From an uncultured Clostridia bacterium (GTDB taxonomy: Bacteria > Bacillota > Clostridia > Oscillospirales > Ruminococcaceae), in NCBI GenBank assembly GCA_946567425.1, contig CAMNXF010000001.1, positions 1 through 64,000 on the forward strand: a stretch of DNA of 64,000 nucleotides. Reading direction: 5' to 3'. Shown in pieces: positions 34,976-49,436 of the stretch. Position numbers and translations under genes: made by a program. The notes beneath the pieces were generated by a model. The model did not search any database and was not told where the DNA came from. It saw only the letters and a program-made list of their open reading frames with translations. Numbering within the stretch: position 1 is the stretch's first letter; every line of letters starts with the position of its first letter.

Positions 34976-35000
34976 GAAGCTCCCTCTTTCAGGGAGCTTC
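34976..35000 (+). terminator. Intrinsic hairpin ending the glycan locus
   Basis: GAAGCTCCCT-CTTTC-AGGGAGCTTC. Confidence 0.75.
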
Positions 35001-35016
35001 CTCATTTAAAACAAGT

Positions 35017-35871
35017 CTAAAATTCCAAAGCCTCGCCGCCGCCCAGATACAGTATTCTGTCGCCGAGCATTTCGTCCATGATATCGAAACCGCGCAGTCC
35101 CGTGCAGTGGCAGGTGTAGACCTTTTCCGCGCCCGAGAGCTTTATCGCGCGCGACTGCGCGGTAATATACTCGGCGGAACAGTTGATCGACTTGGGATTG
35201 CTCCCCGCGAAATGAAACCCTCCGATGACCGCGAGTATTGGAATATCATGCCAGCGCCGCTGAACCGTCTCTAACATATTCGCCGCGCCGCAGTGGAAGC
35301 AGCCGCCGATAAGCACTAACCCGTCCGCCTTGCGCTTTTTCGGGAAGATGACCGCAAAGCTCTCGTCCGAAAAGTCAAACGGCTGCGGCTTTTTCTCTTC
35401 CTCGGAATTTACGAAATAGCTGCGGTCGGGATTGACGCTCTTTTCGTCGAAGTCCTCGCAGCTCGCCAGATAAAAGCCCTCGCATATCTCGGAAAAGCTG
35501 TTGAATAAAATCAGGTTGTCGGCGTACTTTTTAAAGAAACCTTTGCCCTGACCCACGGGCGTTTTAAACAGACCGTTTTTCTTAAACACCTCGCGCTTCG
35601 CCCCCGCGCGCAGATAGATCTCCGCCCGCGGATTGAGCTTCATGACCTGATCGATGCCGCCCGTATGCGCCAGATGACTGTGCGTAAGCACGACCGCGTC
35701 AATCTCGTTTATCGGCAGCCGCATACGCTTCGCGTTCTCGACCGCCTTTCCCGTAAGCCCGGTGTCGATAAGGTAATTTCTGCCGCCGTATTCAACAAAC
35801 AGCGACAAACCCTCCTCAAAAAACAGCTTGTCGTTAGCTGCCGTGTTTTCGATAAGACAAATTATCTTCAA
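35017..35871 (-). CDS. MBL-fold metallohydrolase
   Basis: NYLIDTGLTG, VVLTHSHLAHTGGID, IGGCFHCGAANMLE; probable TTG start 35871 with GGGGGA upstream. Confidence 0.82.
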   Translation of the reverse strand: MKIICLIENTAANDKLFFEEGLSLFVEYGGRNYLIDTGLTGKAVENAKRMRLPINEIDAVVLTHSHLAHTGGIDQVMKLNPRAEIYLRAGAKREVFKKNGLFKTPVGQGKGFFKKYADNLILFNSFSEICEGFYLASCEDFDEKSVNPDRSYFVNSEEEKKPQPFDFSDESFAVIFPKKRKADGLVLIGGCFHCGAANMLETVQRRWHDIPILAVIGGFHFAGSNPKSINCSAEYITAQSRAIKLSGAEKVYTCHCTGLRGFDIMDEMLGDRILYLGGGEALEF

Positions 35872-35888: not shown

Positions 35889-37235
35889 TTATGGATTTGT
35901 GACCTTGCCTAAAAATACTATCTGATTTTCCGTACTGTCGTAGATCATAAACGCGAACGGACGGTCGAGCGTGACTTCCCTTTTCTCGCGCTCCTCGGGC
36001 ATTGCGCACGTATCTGCCGTTATCACGGTTGCCGCAGCCGCCTTTGTTCCGTTTTCGTCAAGCTCCAGCTTGGTCTTTTGCAAAACGTCCGAAACGAACA
36101 TCGGCACATCCGAGATACCCGAAAGATCCGCCTTATAACGGTCAAAAATATCCGACAGCCCGAACGCTTTCAGCGCGTTTGTGAGCGGAATATCTGTCTC
36201 AAAATTCAGTCTCGGCATGCTCACACTAACATCGTATTGATAGCACTCGCTCTCGAGCAGAGACGGAATATCCAAGCTCTCGATAGTAAAACCGCCCGTC
36301 TCCTTCGGCAGTATACCGATAAACTCCAGCCCGTTCAGATAACCGCACCCGAAAGCCGTCGCCGCGTCGTTTTCGTAGTAATTATTGACGACATTATGCA
36401 TAAGCGGTATTTCCTTGGCCGAGCCGTCGGGCAGCGTAAACGGCTGCGTCATATTCTCGTATATCGACCACTCGTCTCGCCACGCCGATTCAAAGTATAT
36501 TGTGTTGATGAGCACCGCCGCGATATCGTCCGAATAGTCATCAAGTGCCTTCGGTATCATCCTGTGCGTTTTGTCGCTCACCCAGCCGTTTATCTCGCTG
36601 AGCGCCTTTTCCTTGTCGGCGAAGTCAAGATTGCGCACCTCCGCCTTGAACTTCTCCGCCAGAGTGTTCCCGTAATCCTCCTTGAACGGCAAATTCTTAT
36701 TCGCCCAAAACGAATTGGCGATCTCGAAAACGTTCTTCCAGCCGTCGCTATAATCCGAAACATAGTTGTAGCGGCTCTCGACTATCTGCATATAGCCGTT
36801 CGCAAAGTCCGAATAATTGTCCGTGCCTAGGTACTTGTCGAGCGCCTCTTTTGAAGCGCCGCCTGCGCCCTCGGCAAGCAGTCCGAGCGCCATATTCAGT
36901 GACAGCGGACTGAACATACTGTTCTCCTTGTCCCCGCTGATAACGTCGAACAGCTTCACGGAGGTCAGCATATTATCGGCGGTTATCTCAACAGGAGGAA
37001 TATCAACATTTTCAACGCTGCTGCCCACCTCGACGGTAGACTGCGAGCTGCTCTCCGTTGAGGACAAGCTTTCGGGTTCTGAGCCGCTCTGCAAACCGGT
37101 CGAATCGGTTGAACTTGTGGAACTGTCGGACGATTGTTCGCCGTTAGCCGTCGAGCCGCCGTTATCCGAGCACCCCGTCAACATTGCGACCGCAAGTAAA
37201 AACGCAAACGCGGAAATAATTCTTTTTTTCATCAC
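35889..37235 (-). CDS. Serpin (serine protease inhibitor), lipoprotein
   Basis: Lipobox LTGCS; NSMFSPLSLNMALGLLAEGAGGAS; VLINTIYFESAW; hinge ENGTKAAAAT; DRPFAFMIYD. Confidence 0.92.
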   Translation of the reverse strand: MMKKRIISAFAFLLAVAMLTGCSDNGGSTANGEQSSDSSTSSTDSTGLQSGSEPESLSSTESSSQSTVEVGSSVENVDIPPVEITADNMLTSVKLFDVISGDKENSMFSPLSLNMALGLLAEGAGGASKEALDKYLGTDNYSDFANGYMQIVESRYNYVSDYSDGWKNVFEIANSFWANKNLPFKEDYGNTLAEKFKAEVRNLDFADKEKALSEINGWVSDKTHRMIPKALDDYSDDIAAVLINTIYFESAWRDEWSIYENMTQPFTLPDGSAKEIPLMHNVVNNYYENDAATAFGCGYLNGLEFIGILPKETGGFTIESLDIPSLLESECYQYDVSVSMPRLNFETDIPLTNALKAFGLSDIFDRYKADLSGISDVPMFVSDVLQKTKLELDENGTKAAAATVITADTCAMPEEREKREVTLDRPFAFMIYDSTENQIVFLGKVTNP

Positions 37236-37244
37236 TATCCCCCC

Positions 37245-38480
37245 TTAAGGCTCTGTTACCTTGCCCAGAAATACTATCTGATTTTCCTCGCTGTCGTAGA
37301 TCATAAACGCGAACGGACGGTCGAGAACGACCGTTCTCTTCTCGCGCGGCATACCCGCCCCCGCAGCAAGTTCAGCCGTTACAGCCGAGGCTCTTGTTCC
37401 GTATTCATCAAGCTCCAGACTTGTTTTTTGCAGAACGTCCGAAATATAAAGCGGAAAAGACGGAACGTTGGCAATACGCGTAAGGTCGACTTTATCGACA
37501 TCGAACAGCTCCGACAATCCCGCCGCCGAAAGCGCTTCCGTAAGCGGCAGATTTGTATCGAATTTCAATCTCGGCATACGTGCGTATACGTCGTAATCGT
37601 ATGTCTCGCTCTCCAACAGCGACGGAATATCAAGGCTTTCTACCGTAAAATCTCCCGTTTCTTTCGGCAGTATCCCGATAAAGTCCAGCCCGTTTTGGTA
37701 TCCGTATCTGAACGCGGTAGCCGCGTTATTCTCAAAGTAGCTGTAAACGTGCTGCCGCATAAGCGGAAGCTCCTTTGACGAGCCGTCAAGCATAGTGAAC
37801 GTTTCCTTGTCGTTTTCAACGACTGTCCACTCGCTGCCCCAGCGTGATTCAAAATATATCGTGTTAATAAGCACCGCCGCGATAATCTTCTCGTCATAAT
37901 CGCTGATTATAGACGGTATCATTTTATGCGTTTTTTCCTTGACCCAGCCGTTTATTTCTTTGAGCGTACCGTTTTTGTCAGCGAAGTCGATATTACGCAC
38001 CTCCGCGCCAAATTTCTGCGTTATATCACTCTTGTAGCTCTCGTTGAACGTAATATTCTTATTCGCCCAGAACGAATTGGCGATCTCAAAGACGTTCTTG
38101 TATTTGTCCTCGTAGCCCGAGGGAGCGTTGTAATCGCTGATAACTTTCATATAGCTTTCGGCGAACGCTCCGTAGTCGTCCGTACCAAGATACTTGTTAA
38201 GCGCCTCCTTTGAAGTACCACCCGCGCCCTCGGCGAGCAGTCCGAGCGCCATATTCAGCGACAGAGGACTGAACATACTGTTCGCCATGTCCTCGCTCAC
38301 CGCGTCAAAAACGCGTATCGAATTTTGAACATTGTCGTCTGTTATCTCGATTGGCGACAGCACTGTGAACTTTCTTTGTCCGATAACCATATCTCCCTCT
38401 TTCGAGCCTCTCTCCGAACAGCCCGTCAATATCGCGAACGCAAGCGAAATCGCAACCGCGGAAATAATTCTTTTTTTCAT
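37245..38480 (-). CDS. Serpin, lipoprotein
   Basis: Lipobox LTGCS; NSMFSPLSLNMALGLLAEGAGGTS; hinge DEYGTRASAVT; DRPFAFMIYD. Confidence 0.92.
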   Translation of the reverse strand: MKKRIISAVAISLAFAILTGCSERGSKEGDMVIGQRKFTVLSPIEITDDNVQNSIRVFDAVSEDMANSMFSPLSLNMALGLLAEGAGGTSKEALNKYLGTDDYGAFAESYMKVISDYNAPSGYEDKYKNVFEIANSFWANKNITFNESYKSDITQKFGAEVRNIDFADKNGTLKEINGWVKEKTHKMIPSIISDYDEKIIAAVLINTIYFESRWGSEWTVVENDKETFTMLDGSSKELPLMRQHVYSYFENNAATAFRYGYQNGLDFIGILPKETGDFTVESLDIPSLLESETYDYDVYARMPRLKFDTNLPLTEALSAAGLSELFDVDKVDLTRIANVPSFPLYISDVLQKTSLELDEYGTRASAVTAELAAGAGMPREKRTVVLDRPFAFMIYDSEENQIVFLGKVTEP

Positions 38481-38492
38481 AGAAGTACCTCC

Positions 38493-39731
38493 TTACGGCT
38501 CAGTGACCTTGCCCATGAACACTATAAGCTCCTGTGCGGGGTCGTATATCACGAACGCAAACGGACGGTCAAGAAATACCTCTTTGCGTATTCTCAACTC
38601 CTCGGACGGGGCGGCACTGCCGTTCATCATTATCCCCGTAGCCGCGGCAGCCTTTGTCTTGTGTTCGTCAAGCTCCAGCCGCGTCTTTTGCAGAACGTCC
38701 GACACCCAAAGCTCCTCGTCGGACATACCCGAAAAGTCCGCTTTACCGCTATCGAATATCTCCGACAGCCCCGCCGCCGAAAGCGCATTGGCAAGCGGTA
38801 GCTCGGTATCGAACGTCAACTTCGGCATACGCGCGTAAACGTCGTAGTCGTAGGTCTCGCTCTCCAGCAGCGACGGAATATCCAGCCCCTCAAGCGTAAA
38901 TTCGCCCGTCTCTTTCGGCAGTATCCCGATAAACTCAAGCCCGCTCTTGTAACGGCTGCTGAAAGCGGTCGCCTTATCGTTCTCAAAGTACGCGCCGCCG
39001 CTGTTCCGCATAAGCGCAAGCTCCTTTACCGAGCCGTCGGGGAGGGTAAACTCGTCCTTGCGGTCGGCATCGTAATCCCAATCTTCTGTCCAAGCGCTCT
39101 CGAAATAAAAGGTGTTGACGAGTATCGCGGCGGTCCCGTCGGCAACATCATTGAGCATTCTCGGTATCATCTTATGGGTCTTGTCAGACACCCAGCGGTT
39201 GACCTCGCCGACCACCCTGCTCTTGTCGCCGAAGTCCATATTGCGTATCTCCGCGCCGAATTTCTGCTTCACCGCGTCCGTGTAGTCGCGCTTGAATGGG
39301 AAAGCGTCGTCGCCCCAGAACGAATTCGCGATCTCAAAATAATTCTCGTCCTTGCCGCCTTTGCCGTTGTAGTTTTCTTTCGCGAGCTTCATATAGCTCT
39401 CGGAGAACGCTCCATAATCGTCCGTGCCGAGATACTTACCGAGCACCTCTTTTGTGCTGCCCTCCGCGCCCTCGGCGAGCATTCCGAGCGCCATATTCAG
39501 CGACAGCGGACTGAACATACTGTTCGCCTTGTCCGCGCACACTGCGTCAAACAGCCGAACGGAATTAAGCACGTTGTCCTCCGTCACCTCGATAGGCGAC
39601 AGCATATTCCGCTCGCGAATGCCCGCGACCATTCCGCCGCTCCCGGTGTTTTCACCGCAATCGGTACTGCAAGCCGTAAGCGACAGCAGCGAAAGCGCCG
39701 CCGTCACTGCCGCGATAATACTCTTTTTCAT
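38493..39731 (-). CDS. Serpin, lipoprotein
   Basis: Lipobox LTACS; NSMFSPLSLNMALGMLAEGAEGST; hinge DEHKTKAAAAT; DRPFAFVIYD; start ATG 39731. Confidence 0.92.
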   Translation of the reverse strand: MKKSIIAAVTAALSLLSLTACSTDCGENTGSGGMVAGIRERNMLSPIEVTEDNVLNSVRLFDAVCADKANSMFSPLSLNMALGMLAEGAEGSTKEVLGKYLGTDDYGAFSESYMKLAKENYNGKGGKDENYFEIANSFWGDDAFPFKRDYTDAVKQKFGAEIRNMDFGDKSRVVGEVNRWVSDKTHKMIPRMLNDVADGTAAILVNTFYFESAWTEDWDYDADRKDEFTLPDGSVKELALMRNSGGAYFENDKATAFSSRYKSGLEFIGILPKETGEFTLEGLDIPSLLESETYDYDVYARMPKLTFDTELPLANALSAAGLSEIFDSGKADFSGMSDEELWVSDVLQKTRLELDEHKTKAAAATGIMMNGSAAPSEELRIRKEVFLDRPFAFVIYDPAQELIVFMGKVTEP

Positions 39732-39773: not shown

Positions 39774-40163
39774 CTATTTCGGCATTCCCTCTCCGTGCTT
39801 ATGCACGTACTTCTTTATCGCCGCATAGCTCTCTGCGCTGAGGCAGTGCTCGATCCGGCACGCGTCCTCAGCCGCTATATCCTCGGGAACTCCCATTGAG
39901 GTAAGCCAGCTCGTAAACAGCAAATGCCGTTCGTAAACGCGCTCCGCGATCTCTCGCCCCGTTCTCGTAAGCGTGATATACCCGTTTTTGTCAACAGAGA
40001 TGCACCCCTCCTCGCGGAGGTTCTTCATTGCGACGCTCACCGACGGCTTAGAAAATTCCATTTCTGCGGCAATATCAACCGAGCGCACCTCGCCGTTGCG
40101 ATTATGCAAAATCAAAATCGTCTCAAGATAATCTTCCTTGGATTCAAAAATTCTGTCTTTCAT
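39774..40163 (-). CDS. DtxR/MntR-family metal-dependent regulator
   Basis: KEDYLETI, HTH SVDIAAEMEFSKPSVSVAMKNLREEG, YERH, EDACRIEHCLS: residues aligning with the MntR metal ligands. Confidence 0.9.
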   Translation of the reverse strand: MKDRIFESKEDYLETILILHNRNGEVRSVDIAAEMEFSKPSVSVAMKNLREEGCISVDKNGYITLTRTGREIAERVYERHLLFTSWLTSMGVPEDIAAEDACRIEHCLSAESYAAIKKYVHKHGEGMPK

Positions 40164-40201
40164 AGTTCCGCCTTTTCATAGATAGTCTTTTGCTTACACT
40201 T

Positions 40202-40230
40202 ATTGTACCACTTTTCAGCAAATTAGTCAA
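40202..40230 (-). promoter_or_regulatory. Sigma70/sigmaA promoter upstream of the DtxR-like gene
   Basis: Minus strand TTGACT-17 bp-TACAAT. Confidence 0.75.
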
Positions 40231-40274
40231 GTGTTGTCGGGATCGTTGTATGAAATCGGCGAATTGCGCTCTTG

Positions 40275-40435
40275 GAACTTGTTCTCATAGCCGCTCAACG
40301 CTTGTCTTGCAGCAAATTATTCCGATTACGTCGTCAAAACTCCTTGACGTACATAAAGTACGTCTGCGAACTTTTCCTCGTACTCGAGAAAATTTGCTTT
40401 GCAATCCGAGCATTTCGGGCTATGAGAACAAGTTC
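40275..40435. repeat. MITE-like / large imperfect hairpin element
   Basis: Perfect 18-bp terminal IR GAACTTGTTCTCATAGCC / GGCTATGAGAACAAGTTC; arms pair imperfectly to a central perfect hairpin GACGTAC-ATAAA-GTACGTC. Confidence 0.75.
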
Positions 40436-40540
40436 TTACAACTAAAACCCGATAACTTACGAAAATGCTGCACAAATATGCAGTTTTTTAAAAAATTTCG
40501 CGCCGCTTTCTTCAATTCACGGAAAGCGGCGCGTAACGCA

Positions 40541-43500
40541 TTATTCCACCGACTTTAAGGATTCAACCATGCTTATTTTTTTCAGAACCCTTGTCATTAT
40601 CAGATTAACGATCAGCGAAAACGCCACGGTCACGAGCAGCGCCCAGATATAGCTCGGAAAATGAATACTTCGCCCGAACATTACCTCGTCAATCTCCGCC
40701 GTCTGAATGACGAACATACAAAGCGCGTACCCGAGAAACAGCCCTACAAAGCCGCCCATTACCGACAAAACGATATTTTCGCGAAACACATAGCTCGAGA
40801 CCTCCGCGTCATAAAAGCCGAGAACCTTAAGCGTCGCAATCTCCCGAATGCGTTCGGTAATGTTTACGTTTGTGAGATTATACAGCACCACAAACGCCAG
40901 CGCCGCCGCCGAGACGATAAGCACCACCGTCACAAGGTCCATAATTTGCAGCGTATCATTCACGCTTGACAGAGAACTTGCGTTCATGATGACGGCAAGA
41001 ACGTTTTCATTTTTAAGGACGTGCTCCGTAAAGCTGTTCTGTACGTCCTTGTCGCGGGAGATCCCGTTGTCAAAATACAACATATTGTAGTACGGTTCGC
41101 CGCCGAAAACCTCCTTGTACAAGTCCTCGGCAATGTACAGGTAGTGGCTTGTGTATTGCTCGGTAATGCCTGCTATTTTCACCTTTCTGTTTACACCGTC
41201 GCTCACCTGAACCGTTATCTCATCGCCCACGCCCGCGTTCAGCAGCTTTGCCGCTTTTTCGGTGATCACTGCGCCGCCGTTCAGCGTCAGCTTTTCACGC
41301 GAAACGCGCTCGTGCAGATCGACAAACGTTTCAAACAGTTCCACGTTCTCCACAGCGGTAACATACACCTGAACGCTGTTCCCCGAAAATTCCGTGCCGT
41401 ATTGCTTTATCAGCGCACGGGTGTATTTTGTGTTCCCGTCATAATCGAGAAGAGTATCGTAAATGCTGTTCAGCTCTGAAGGCTTTATTTCGTCATCGAA
41501 CGCAAGATAGCCGCTGTATTTGTATATCTGATTATATTGCAGGTCAACTATATCGGTAATCGAATTTTTCAGTCCGAAGCCCGTCAGCGAAAGCGCCGTG
41601 CAGCCCGCAATGCCGACAATCGTCATAAACATTCTGCGCTTGTAGCGGAACAGATTACGTCCGCTCACCTTTGCGAAGAAATTCATATTGTTCCATAGGA
41701 ACGGTATTCGCTCGATAAGCACGCGCTTTCCCGCCTTGGGAGCCTTTGGTCTCATAAGCGACGCAGGAGTTTCCTGCAAAGCCTTGTTGCAGCTGAAGAA
41801 CACCGTAGCCGCAATAGCAAGAACCATAGAGCCTATCGATACTATCATATTTTCGGGAGTGAACAGGTAGTGTATATCGGTGATTATGTACATCATCGAA
41901 TACGCGTACACGATAACGCTCGGGAAAAGGAAGCAGCCGCCAATCGCACCGATAATTCCTCCCGCCGCCGCGCCCGATACCGCGTACGTCATATAGTGCC
42001 GCATGATCGCGCTGTTCGAGTAGCCGAGAGCTTTCAGCGTTCCGACCTGAGTTCGCTGTTCCTCGACCATTCTTGACATGGTCGTAAGGCAGACCAATCC
42101 CGCAACCAGCAAAAAGAACACCGGAAAGATCGCCGCTATCTTGTTGATACGCTCAGAATTTGAGTCGTATTCTGCGTAGCCCGTGTTGTCGTCGCGCTTG
42201 AAGATATACCACTCTGCGTTGCCGATGTCGGATATCTTCTCTTTCGCGTCCACGATTTTTTTCTCCGCGTCTGCTATCTCCCTATTGAATGTATATACAC
42301 CGTCCTCGTAGTCGCGCAGACCATCCTCGTATTTCCTCTTCGCGTCCTCGATCTCGATAAGCCCTTGCTCGTACTGATCGACGCCGTCATCGAGTTCGCC
42401 GCGCTTTTCGTTGAGCGTGAGCATACCCTCGTAATATTGCTTCTCGCCGTCTTCTATCTTGGCAAGACCGTCGGTGTACTGCTCCAGACCGTCCAGATAT
42501 TCCCGCAGACCCTCGTCATATTCACGTCTGCCGTCTGCGAGCAACTCCGCGTTTTTAATGTATTCCGCGAGGCCTTCCTCATACTGCGCCTTGCCCTCTT
42601 CGAACGTTTTCCTGCCCTCGTCAAGCTGCTGCTGTCCGTCCTCGAGCTGTTTTTCGCCGTCCGCAAGCTGTTTCAGACCGTCGTCGATCTGTTTCTGCGC
42701 CTCCGCAAGCTGAGCCTCTCCGTCCGCGATCTTCTCCTCGTTTACAGCAATCTCCCGCTCGCCCGCCTCCAGTTGAGCCAGTGCGTTGTCAAGTTGCGTC
42801 TTGCCCTCGTCAAGCTGCGTTTTCATCTGCGCCAACGCATCGCGCGAAGCCTGTATCGCCTGCTGCATAACGGTCAGCCATTCGCTGTCGGGATTTTCCG
42901 CCGCAAATTTCTCATACTCCTCCTCCGCTCTGCTGAACAGCTCGGCGGCTTGCTCGTACTGCTCCAGACCTGTTTCGTATTCTTCCAGACCGCTGCGGTA
43001 TTGCTCCCAACCGTTTGCAATCTCCACTTTCGCAAGCTCTATCTGATTTTTTCCGTCCTCAAGCTCCGCCTTGTTTTTGTCTATTTCCGCTTGACCGTCT
43101 TCGAGCAGCTTACGGTTCTTTTCGATCTCTGTGCGGGAATCGTCCAGCAGCTTTTGCGAATCTTCGATCTCCTTTTGCGACTCGTCAATCTGAACCTTGG
43201 CTTCATCGAGCGTTTTCTTTCCGTCCGCGAGCTGCCGTTCGCCATCCTCTATCTCCTTTAACGCGTCCTCTAACTGTTTCTTCGCGTCGTCGAGCGTCGG
43301 TTTGTTTTCGGCAAGCTCGCGCTTACCATCCTCTATTTCCTTTTTTGCGTCGGCAAGTTCCTTTTCCGCATCAGCAAGCTGAACCTTTCCGTCCGCGATA
43401 TCGTCCTTTGCTTCTTGAAGTTCGCGTTCGCCGTCCTCGATCTGCTGCTTTGCGTCGTCAAGCTGCTTCTTCGCGTCGTCAAGCTCCTTTTGCCCGTCCG

Positions 43501-44320
43501 CCTTTGCCTCGGCGAGCTCTTTTTCTCCCTTGTCTATCTCCGCCTGTGCGTCGCCGATAACCTCGTTATAACGAATGACGCTCCTGTCTTTTCCGAGACT
43601 TTCCAGCTTGTCGGAAATTTCGTCGCGCAGTGTTTTGTATTCGTCGGAGTAGCTTTGCAAATTTTTTAGTTTGTCCGACTTTATATATATCTCGGTGTAC
43701 ACCTCTTGTGTAAAATGCTCCTCGGGAACTATCATAAACGCGTCCAACGCGCCGTCGCCGATATTGGTGCTGCCGCGCTGCGTTTTGGAAATGTACATTG
43801 GGGTGTTGTATATACCGACGACCTTGTACTCCGTCCGCTTTAACGGAAACTCCTCCGCTTCTGTAAGATCCGTAAGCGTTACTGTATCGCCGACGCTTAT
43901 TCCTCCTCCAAGAATATTGTAGCTGACGATACATTCATCGTCCGCGGACGGAGCTTCGCCCTCGAAAATGTCAACGGTATTGATCTCATCGGACGTTTTT
44001 GAGTAGACGCGCGTTAAATATTCCTTTTCGTTATCATGCATGGCAAGGTCGGTATACTTCGACGTATACACTCCGTCAACGCCGTCCGTTTCCGCGATAG
44101 CCTTTGCGTCGTCATCCGTCAACCCGAAAGTCGACAGCACACGCAGGTCGAACAAGTTATGCGCGTCGTAGTAATCGTCCGCTGTGACCTTCATTATTTC
44201 ACAGGTCGCGCGCACTCCGCTGAAAAATCCCACACCGATCGCGCATATTAGAAATATCGACAGAAAACGGTTTCTCGATTTGGATATTTCGCGGATCGTA
44301 TTTTTATTGACAGCTCTCAT
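40541..44320 (-). CDS. FtsX-type ABC transporter permease with very long coiled-coil insertion
   Basis: N-terminal TM + extracytoplasmic region, ~450-aa L-x-D/E-G-rich coiled coil, two C-terminal FtsX-like TM regions. Confidence 0.88.
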   Translation of the reverse strand: MRAVNKNTIREISKSRNRFLSIFLICAIGVGFFSGVRATCEIMKVTADDYYDAHNLFDLRVLSTFGLTDDDAKAIAETDGVDGVYTSKYTDLAMHDNEKEYLTRVYSKTSDEINTVDIFEGEAPSADDECIVSYNILGGGISVGDTVTLTDLTEAEEFPLKRTEYKVVGIYNTPMYISKTQRGSTNIGDGALDAFMIVPEEHFTQEVYTEIYIKSDKLKNLQSYSDEYKTLRDEISDKLESLGKDRSVIRYNEVIGDAQAEIDKGEKELAEAKADGQKELDDAKKQLDDAKQQIEDGERELQEAKDDIADGKVQLADAEKELADAKKEIEDGKRELAENKPTLDDAKKQLEDALKEIEDGERQLADGKKTLDEAKVQIDESQKEIEDSQKLLDDSRTEIEKNRKLLEDGQAEIDKNKAELEDGKNQIELAKVEIANGWEQYRSGLEEYETGLEQYEQAAELFSRAEEEYEKFAAENPDSEWLTVMQQAIQASRDALAQMKTQLDEGKTQLDNALAQLEAGEREIAVNEEKIADGEAQLAEAQKQIDDGLKQLADGEKQLEDGQQQLDEGRKTFEEGKAQYEEGLAEYIKNAELLADGRREYDEGLREYLDGLEQYTDGLAKIEDGEKQYYEGMLTLNEKRGELDDGVDQYEQGLIEIEDAKRKYEDGLRDYEDGVYTFNREIADAEKKIVDAKEKISDIGNAEWYIFKRDDNTGYAEYDSNSERINKIAAIFPVFFLLVAGLVCLTTMSRMVEEQRTQVGTLKALGYSNSAIMRHYMTYAVSGAAAGGIIGAIGGCFLFPSVIVYAYSMMYIITDIHYLFTPENMIVSIGSMVLAIAATVFFSCNKALQETPASLMRPKAPKAGKRVLIERIPFLWNNMNFFAKVSGRNLFRYKRRMFMTIVGIAGCTALSLTGFGLKNSITDIVDLQYNQIYKYSGYLAFDDEIKPSELNSIYDTLLDYDGNTKYTRALIKQYGTEFSGNSVQVYVTAVENVELFETFVDLHERVSREKLTLNGGAVITEKAAKLLNAGVGDEITVQVSDGVNRKVKIAGITEQYTSHYLYIAEDLYKEVFGGEPYYNMLYFDNGISRDKDVQNSFTEHVLKNENVLAVIMNASSLSSVNDTLQIMDLVTVVLIVSAAALAFVVLYNLTNVNITERIREIATLKVLGFYDAEVSSYVFRENIVLSVMGGFVGLFLGYALCMFVIQTAEIDEVMFGRSIHFPSYIWALLVTVAFSLIVNLIMTRVLKKISMVESLKSVE

Positions 44321-44330
44321 ATCCCCTCCG

Positions 44331-45032
<702 letters not shown>

Positions 45033-45123
45033 AATCTGCTCCTCACTTAAAACAAGACTTTTCGCAGCCGATACTTCCGCACGGGCAATCGCCGGCGGCA
45101 CACGGAACGTGCCGAAAGCGGAA

Positions 45124-45262
45124 GGCGTTTCGTCGGCTGCTCCTACGGAGCGACCTCCGAAACGCCGCGGCTTGCCCGCCTTTTCCGCTGACGCGGAAAA
45201 GCGCCGTTCGCTGCACTCGCGGCGAATTCGCTCACTATGTTCGCGAATTGCGGGCAAGCCGC
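45124..45262. repeat. Multi-hairpin intergenic element
   Basis: Perfect stems GGCGTTTCG/CGAAACGCC, GCTCC-tac-GGAGC, CTTTTCCGC-tgac-GCGGAAAAG and outer GCGGCTTGCCCGC/GCGGGCAAGCCGC. Confidence 0.75.
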
Positions 45263-45416
45263 CGTCTTTACAGCGATACAGCCGCATTTAACGAAACGGA
45301 AACGGCACCGCACAGCTGTACGGTGCCGAATGGATCATTTCAGCTACATATAATTATTGTACATTTTCACACCGAAAATTATGTGTTGCTTTGTTGAATT
45401 ATGGGTGAAAAAGAGC

Positions 45417-46709: not shown

Positions 46710-47570
46710 TTAATTTTCCTGAAAATGCCTGAGTATCCCCTCAAGCTGTTCCTTATCGCCAAAGCTGATCTGCAGCGTATTCCCGCTTTTGCCCTCAGAA
46801 ATCTTGACCTTTGTGCCAAGCTGTTCCGCAAGGCTTACCTCGACCTCGGTGTAGTAGGTCATACGCGGCTTTATATCACGCGGTCTGTTCTCGAGTTCCT
46901 CTTGTAAGCGCTTTGTTTCACGCTTTGCAATCGCCTCCACCTGACGCACCGAAAGCTCGCCCTCGGCGGTCTTGTGGGCAAGCTCTATCATCAGAGCCTC
47001 GTCCTTTATCTTTTTAAGCGCCTTGCAGTGCCCCGCCGACAAGCTTCCGTTCCTCAAAAGCTCCTGTACGCCGTTCGGCATCGCCAACAAGCCCAAACTG
47101 TTCGCAATTGATGAACGCGCTTTGCCGAGCGCCTTTGCCAGCTTGTCCTGCGTCATATCGTACTTGTCGATAAGTTCTTTGTAGCCGAGCGCTTCTTCGA
47201 TCGGATTGAGGTTTTCGCGCTGCAAATTTTCAATCATCGCGATCTGCATTGCCTGTTCCTCAGAAATATCATCGCGCACAACAACGGGTATTTCGGAAAG
47301 CCCCGCCATTTTTGCCGCTCTCCAGCGGCGCTCCCCCGCGATTATCTGATAATTTCCGCTCGACAATGAGCGCACGATAAGCGGTTGTATAACTCCGTGC
47401 TCTGTTATCGACTCGGCGAGCTGTTTAAGACCTTCGCTGTCGAAGCTCTTGCGCGGCTGATCCTTATTCGGCTCGATCTCGCTTAACCGCAGCATTGTGC
47501 CGTTCTCCGCGCTTTCAACGCTGTTGTCGAAGAACAGATCGTTAAAGCTGCTTTCAGTTTTTCTTGACAT
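46710..47570 (-). CDS. parB: Chromosome partitioning protein ParB (Spo0J)
   Basis: QPRKSFDSEGLKQLAESITEHGVIQPLIV; GERRWRAAKMAGLSEIPVVV; HTH KLAKALGKARSSIANSLGLL. Confidence 0.93.
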   Translation of the reverse strand: MSRKTESSFNDLFFDNSVESAENGTMLRLSEIEPNKDQPRKSFDSEGLKQLAESITEHGVIQPLIVRSLSSGNYQIIAGERRWRAAKMAGLSEIPVVVRDDISEEQAMQIAMIENLQRENLNPIEEALGYKELIDKYDMTQDKLAKALGKARSSIANSLGLLAMPNGVQELLRNGSLSAGHCKALKKIKDEALMIELAHKTAEGELSVRQVEAIAKRETKRLQEELENRPRDIKPRMTYYTEVEVSLAEQLGTKVKISEGKSGNTLQISFGDKEQLEGILRHFQEN

Positions 47571-48515: not shown

Positions 48516-49328
48516 TCAGATATTTATTGGGAATTTTATCGTATACTCATAGAACATTTCCGACTTTTCGGTTGTAAGTTCGCACGGAACCTTGTCCTCT
48601 TTAATGCGCTTAAGCAGCGCATTCAGCGAGTTCATGTACAGTCTGGGCGGCGCGGTTATCGGCAGCTTTTTGCGTTGTATTTTCTCACGCTTTACCGTTC
48701 CTTTAACCACCTGTTCAACAAGCTCTTCCGTCTGCTTCAGGTCGAGATTTTTTGTAACTACCCTTTCGATCGTGTTTAACCGCAGTTGCACGTTCTCTAT
48801 ACGGACAAGCGCGCGAGCCTGTCGTTCGTTAAGATTACCCATTAGCAGCATACGCCGCTCCGTGTCGGTAAACTTTAGAAGCCGCAGCTTATTTGCAATT
48901 GTGGATTGCGCCTTTCCAAGACGAGCGGCGGCACTCTCCTGAGTTAATCCATAGTAGGTAATCAACTTTTCAATAGCCAAAGCCTCCTCAAAGTAACTCA
49001 GGTCTTTGCGCTGAATATTCTCAATGAGCGCAAGCACCGCCGATTGCTCGTCATCAACCGTCATTACAATACACGGAACTTCATTTAACCCTGCAAGCCG
49101 AGCCGCACGTGTTCTGCGCTCGCCGCTGATTATTTCGTAAACAGCCCCTTTCTTCCGCACGCATATCGGCTGGATTATACCGTTCTCCTTGATACTTTGC
49201 GAGAGCGATAAAAGCTGCTCCTCGCTGAACTCTCGGCGCGGCTGCGACTTATTCGGGGTAAGCTCGTTTAGTTCAAGCATAACAATCTGCCCCGCAACCT
49301 TCTCCTTTTGTTTAAAAAAACTTGTCAT
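48516..49328 (-). CDS. noc: Second ParB-family protein (Noc-like nucleoid occlusion)
   Basis: QPRREFSEEQLLSLSQSIKENGIIQPI; GERRTRAARLAGLNEVPCIV; located between rsmG and parA as in Firmicutes. Confidence 0.82.
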   Translation of the reverse strand: MTSFFKQKEKVAGQIVMLELNELTPNKSQPRREFSEEQLLSLSQSIKENGIIQPICVRKKGAVYEIISGERRTRAARLAGLNEVPCIVMTVDDEQSAVLALIENIQRKDLSYFEEALAIEKLITYYGLTQESAAARLGKAQSTIANKLRLLKFTDTERRMLLMGNLNERQARALVRIENVQLRLNTIERVVTKNLDLKQTEELVEQVVKGTVKREKIQRKKLPITAPPRLYMNSLNALLKRIKEDKVPCELTTEKSEMFYEYTIKFPINI

Positions 49329-49436
49329 AATTTCCACCTCCTGTAAACCTATTGTAACACAGTCGGGAAATTATTTCCACAGTGACTTATCGCATTTCCC
49401 GACACCAACCACTTCGGAGCAACAAAAAAAGCCCCC

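Follow-up and report, generated by a model that had tools for sequence, protein, structure and literature searches.

Positions 1 to 64,000 of contig CAMNXF010000001.1 (assembly GCA_946567425.1), from an uncultured Clostridia bacterium of the Ruminococcaceae and hereafter called the window, carry three serpin genes, designated S1, S2 and S3. They lie in tandem at 35889-39731, between a gene for a DtxR/MntR-family metal-dependent regulator (dtxR) and a gene for a metallo-beta-lactamase-fold (MBL) hydrolase. The array is genuine and well preserved, and gut bacteria are already known to carry serpins of this kind. From its sequence it likely serves in the surface inhibition of exogenous elastase-like proteases and derives from a single serpin entry into the dtxR-MBL pair. 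S1-S3 would act as suicide substrates, each anchored to the outside of the cell membrane through an N-terminal lipid; once a foreign protease had cut the exposed reactive loop, the loop would insert into beta-sheet A and the protease would be trapped. Small residues around the scissile region would make elastase-like enzymes the targets, these being neutrophil elastase, proteinase 3-like proteases or other exogenous proteases preferring small residues. Expression would be shared with the regulator and the hydrolase and would possibly be metal-responsive. The array would have arisen by one entry into the existing pair, duplications before speciation and later losses, with core gene conversion probable in one relative.

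Identity, anchoring and hinges of the serpins

The Pfam Serpin profile (PF00079) matched S1-S3 at 244.8-264.5 bits (cut-off 27; E-values 2e-72 to 2e-78) and was covered from position 7 to 370 of its 370 positions in each, so that all three possess a full-length domain of the serpin superfamily. The best match of S1 in the PDB was tengpin (E-value 4e-39). AlphaFold2 models were obtained for S3 and S2, with mean predicted local distance difference test scores of 83 and 85 respectively. The best structural matches of the S3 model were solved serpins, tengpin being one of them, and covered the latent, cleaved and polymeric states. Each protein begins with a signal peptide and has a lipobox by residue 35 (LTGC in S1 and S2, LTAC in S3), which by pattern match makes them predicted bacterial lipoproteins; in S1 a long Ser/Thr-rich linker follows the lipobox. 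The first-pass annotation of this DNA had described three tandem lipoprotein serpins here, which is borne out, and the core, hinge and loop strings that it quoted occur as written. No further serpin was found in the searched 2.9-Mb genome (assembly completeness 91.7%).

The annotation had also ascribed an inhibitory hinge to all three proteins, and this holds for two. The hinges of S1 and S2 closely match the published inhibitory motif (PMC8233489), with Glu at P17, Gly at P15, Thr at P14 (where the pattern has Thr/Ser) and small residues at P12-P9; the Val of S2 at P9 is also present in 36 of the serpins read. S3 has Lys at P15 instead of Gly, with the hinge otherwise intact (Thr at P14, Ala at P12-P9, Thr at P8). 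Among the serpins read, P15 was Gly in 81, Lys in five and unreadable in one (86 readable), and the five with Lys are S3 and its four orthologues, the whole of that lineage. Its presence in all five suggests that the change is old and has been kept, and inhibition by S3 is unproven on this account. It is thus possible, though somewhat doubtful, that S1 and S2 are inhibitors while S3 is a decoy substrate, a binding protein or a chaperone. Besides the conserved remainder of the hinge, the S3 model speaks against this, as it places P15-P3 as strand and its closest structural matches include serpins in the latent and cleaved states. However, the hinge is at least partly strand in the S2 model as well, where P15 is Gly, and the models therefore do not separate an inhibitory from a non-inhibitory S3; an effect of P15 could not be read from them. 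The S3 model gives no reason why P15 Lys should block insertion, inhibition itself being beyond the reach of a model.

Reactive loops and probable targets

Among S1-S3 the loops are 18-44% identical and the cores 60-67%. A small canonical P1 (Cys in S1, Ala in S2, Ser in S3) and the Pro at P3' are common to all three, and the earlier statement that the loops differ completely goes too far. Rates of nonsynonymous substitution (dN) and their ratio to synonymous rates (dN/dS) were calculated by the Nei-Gojobori method for all orthologue pairs. Between the window serpins and their own orthologues, core dN was 0.105-0.166 and loop dN 0.25-0.49, the loop being about 2-4 times faster. For lineages A and B, to which S3 and S1 belong, no 21-column stretch of the core matches the loop in variability; a few do in lineage C (that of S2) and in lineage D, a fourth one found in some relatives and absent from the window genome.

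Such divergence could be taken, as in the first-pass annotation, for positive selection directing each serpin against a different protease class. The low identity of the paralogous loops would fit this, as would the orthologous loops being the fastest-evolving stretch in two lineages and a pair of copies in one relative (G028) with 650 identical core nucleotides and loops only 53% identical. Nevertheless, we consider it unlikely. The Ka/Ks comparison of loop and core that had been proposed came out divided: the loop is the faster part, but its dN/dS, calculated over only some 20 codons, stays below 1 in every pair with the window genome (0.16-0.69 for S3, 0.17-0.47 for S1 and 0.28-0.33 for S2). 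It reaches or exceeds 1 in two orthologue pairs only, neither of which includes the window genome, and positive selection on the loop is not claimed. Motifs of the loop are moreover kept across species, which suggests constraint: lineage A retains N-G about midway along the loop and closes with R-[KR]-E-V-F, and A-M-P-x-E-R-E is kept in most members of lineage B. The G028 copies are known from one metagenome assembly.

The residues at the scissile region also give different target classes no support, since S1-S3 are alike in their small canonical P1 and in the Pro at P3', and none has Lys or Arg near the scissile region; in the group, 3 of the 50 loops read have Lys or Arg at P6-P2'. Val is present in the loop of S1, and Ala, Leu, Ile and Met in those of S2 and S3. 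The small P1 provisionally points to small-residue-preferring proteases and away from trypsin-like ones. The assignment of P1 is itself provisional because siropins, the serpins of Eubacterium siraeum, are cut N-terminal to the canonical site.

Restraint of the bacterium's own secreted proteases would be a further role for the array. This is quite improbable, as no subtilase and no papain-like protease was found in the 91.7%-complete genome and its single protease of family S1 is HtrA-like, which is not known to be a serpin target.

Several points weigh against the idea that the array inhibits exogenous elastase-like proteases at the cell surface. The presence of neutrophil proteases is an assumption, the host of the bacterium not being established, and a lipoprotein beneath a thick cell wall could miss some extracellular proteases. 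P1 is not readable from sequence where cleavage can fall off the canonical site, as in the siropins. S3 is the least certain inhibitor of the array owing to its P15 Lys, and S1-S3 and their orthologues have Gln at the His334 position (46 Gln and 39 His among the serpins read). As to regulation, no conserved inverted repeat that could serve as a DtxR operator was identified in the aligned upstream regions.

History of the array and organisation of the unit

The genus includes 22 genomes in which no serpin lies at this locus and dtxR abuts the MBL gene (-12 to 97 nt between the aligned ends), and 16 in which one, two, three, four or five serpins separate the two. The pair also abuts, without a serpin, in a genome of another genus of the family (G160), which was used to root a tree of dtxR and MBL. 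Parsimony on this tree requires a minimum of three changes, namely one gain followed by two losses, and points to a single serpin entry into the pair; the node of the gain has moderate support (80/70). All array serpins fall into a single clade (support 99/99), in which S1, S2 and S3 each cluster with genes of other species and not with one another. Lineage A is present in five genomes, B in four (orthologues of S1 in G004, G028, with two copies, and G029) and C in four (orthologues of S2 in L061, G028 and G029), with the gene order kept across related species. Since each serpin has orthologues elsewhere and their arrangement is shared, the duplications predate these species, and the local duplication proposed in the first-pass annotation is not particular to the window species.

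Variants of the locus were also observed. The MBL gene is inverted in G017, and four further genomes have dtxR with no MBL gene beside it. No MBL gene was found in G030, G034, G040 and G041; these genomes, together with G037, G033 and G011-G013, lack the array and have a different serpin at another locus (hinge EKGT[RK]AGA[AV]T). A larger serpin expansion is present elsewhere in the family, with at least six serpins per genome in G138 and G332 (other genus), spread over several contigs and several of them in open frames of 500-670 aa.

The two lineage-B serpins of G028 (L065 6148-8665) differ at their ends and loop, and the 650-nt identical tract in their cores probably reflects gene conversion, with repeat collapse during assembly as the alternative. 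Within the window array gene conversion was not seen, the longest exact tracts between paralogues (24-35 nt) being no longer than those between orthologues; an unusual resemblance was confined to S1 and S2, over their final 25 codons. An identical tract of 169 nt in G004 was traced to overlapping reading frames and set aside as an artefact. A bolder interpretation, in which a metal-controlled surface array with conversion-homogenised cores and freely diverging loops would present a changing panel of protease baits, one lineage with a P15 Lys hinge new for inhibitory serpins, is quite unlikely.

The genes dtxR, S3, S2, S1 and MBL lie in this order of transcription on one strand, separated by 42, 12, 9 and 17 nt, with a single promoter-like site of sigma-70 type upstream and a strong intrinsic terminator downstream (Table 1). 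They are probably co-transcribed as a single transcript. Promoter-like sites are no more numerous in the region upstream of dtxR than in shuffled sequence, and the evidence for a promoter is therefore its conservation: G004 and G029 have a near-identical sequence upstream of dtxR, and many further genomes have one that resembles it. The dtxR product has an N-terminal helix-turn-helix and a metal-binding dimerisation domain, both above the Pfam cut-off, which places it in the DtxR/MntR family; the nearest solved structure is MntR (2h09). As the serpins are probably co-transcribed with this gene, their expression may respond to metal, metal control through the DtxR-family regulator being suggested by gene order. 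The MBL hydrolase has a solved relative in 2p4z (E-value 4.7e-40). Its gene has a G-rich ribosome-binding site, and a longer listed open reading frame, extending to 36009, overlaps S1 in a different frame.

Table 1. Features of the dtxR-serpin-MBL unit, with positions in the window
Feature	Position	Strand	Description
Intrinsic terminator	34976..35000	minus	Strong, 3' of the MBL gene; 10-bp stem and T-rich tail
MBL-fold hydrolase gene	35017..35871	minus	Last gene; TTG start; PF00753
Serpin S1 (lineage B)	35889..37235	minus	PF00079, 2.2e-78; hinge DENGTKAAAAT; loop VITADTCAMPEEREKREVT
Serpin S2 (lineage C)	37245..38480	minus	PF00079, 2.1e-72; hinge DEYGTRASAVT; loop AELAAGAGMPREKRTVV
Serpin S3 (lineage A)	38493..39731	minus	PF00079, 1.2e-73; hinge DEHKTKAAAAT; loop GIMMNGSAAPSEELRIRKEVF
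dtxR	39774..40163	minus	First gene; 129 aa; PF01325 and PF02742
Promoter-like site	40202..40230	minus	TTGACT-17-TACAAT; TG before the -10 hexamer; 10/12 match

Next to the unit lies a gene for an FtsX-type ABC permease (40541-44320) with a very large coiled-coil insertion (approximately residues 205-700), alongside that of its ATPase (44331-45287); across the genus, most genomes have this permease beside the dtxR unit. In G004 (L066 3888-6268) two extra genes, by eye a D-Ala-D-Ala carboxypeptidase-like gene and a deacylase gene, lie between ftsX and dtxR, where the window retains no more than some 380 nt containing inverted repeats (40163-40541), which suggests a deletion. Further along, close to gidA and gyrA, two ParB-family genes (46710-47570 and 48516-49337) flank a ParA gene, a region that looks like the neighbourhood of a replication origin.

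Comparison with known bacterial serpins

The locus offers a clean natural comparison, with the same dtxR-MBL pair carrying from zero to five serpins across close species, and the orthologues allow loop change to be separated from core change. S1, S2 and S3 with their species orthologues are matched proteins on which the loop targets of bacterial serpins could be tested, and matched serpins with Gly or Lys at P15 could show whether P15 Gly is required for inhibition.

The siropins 1 and 2 of E. siraeum are, like S1-S3, paralogous serpins (60% identical, with loops 48% identical) and come from a gut member of the Clostridia; they have Gly/Ala-rich hinges, and the purified proteins inhibit human neutrophil elastase and proteinase 3, the kind of activity predicted for S1-S3, and are cleaved after Val (PMC5127057). 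Set against S1-S3 by description and not by sequence, they differ in that neither an array of lipoproteins nor a dtxR-MBL unit is reported for them, nor a P15 Lys, and that siropin 1 is predicted to be intracellular. Tengpin of Thermoanaerobacter tengcongensis (PDB 2pee, 2pef and 2vh4), the closest solved relative of S1, is by contrast from a thermophile and shows approximately 27-28% identity in structural alignment. The serpins of Bifidobacterium longum (BL0108) and B. breve are from gut bacteria, lie in a regulated operon and act on elastases; unlike the array described here, they have been studied as one gene, under LacI-type or protease-induced two-component control and not that of a DtxR-family regulator (PMC8012564). 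Miropin of Tannerella forsythia is a bacterial serpin reported to have a broad protease range and several usable loop bonds; it belongs to another phylum and is more distant from S1 (5ncs, E-value 1e-30). A partial and non-exhaustive literature search found no published description of serpins inside a dtxR-MBL unit. The features that distinguish S1-S3 are their conserved multi-copy array, its position inside the dtxR-MBL pair and a lineage in which P15 Lys is fixed.
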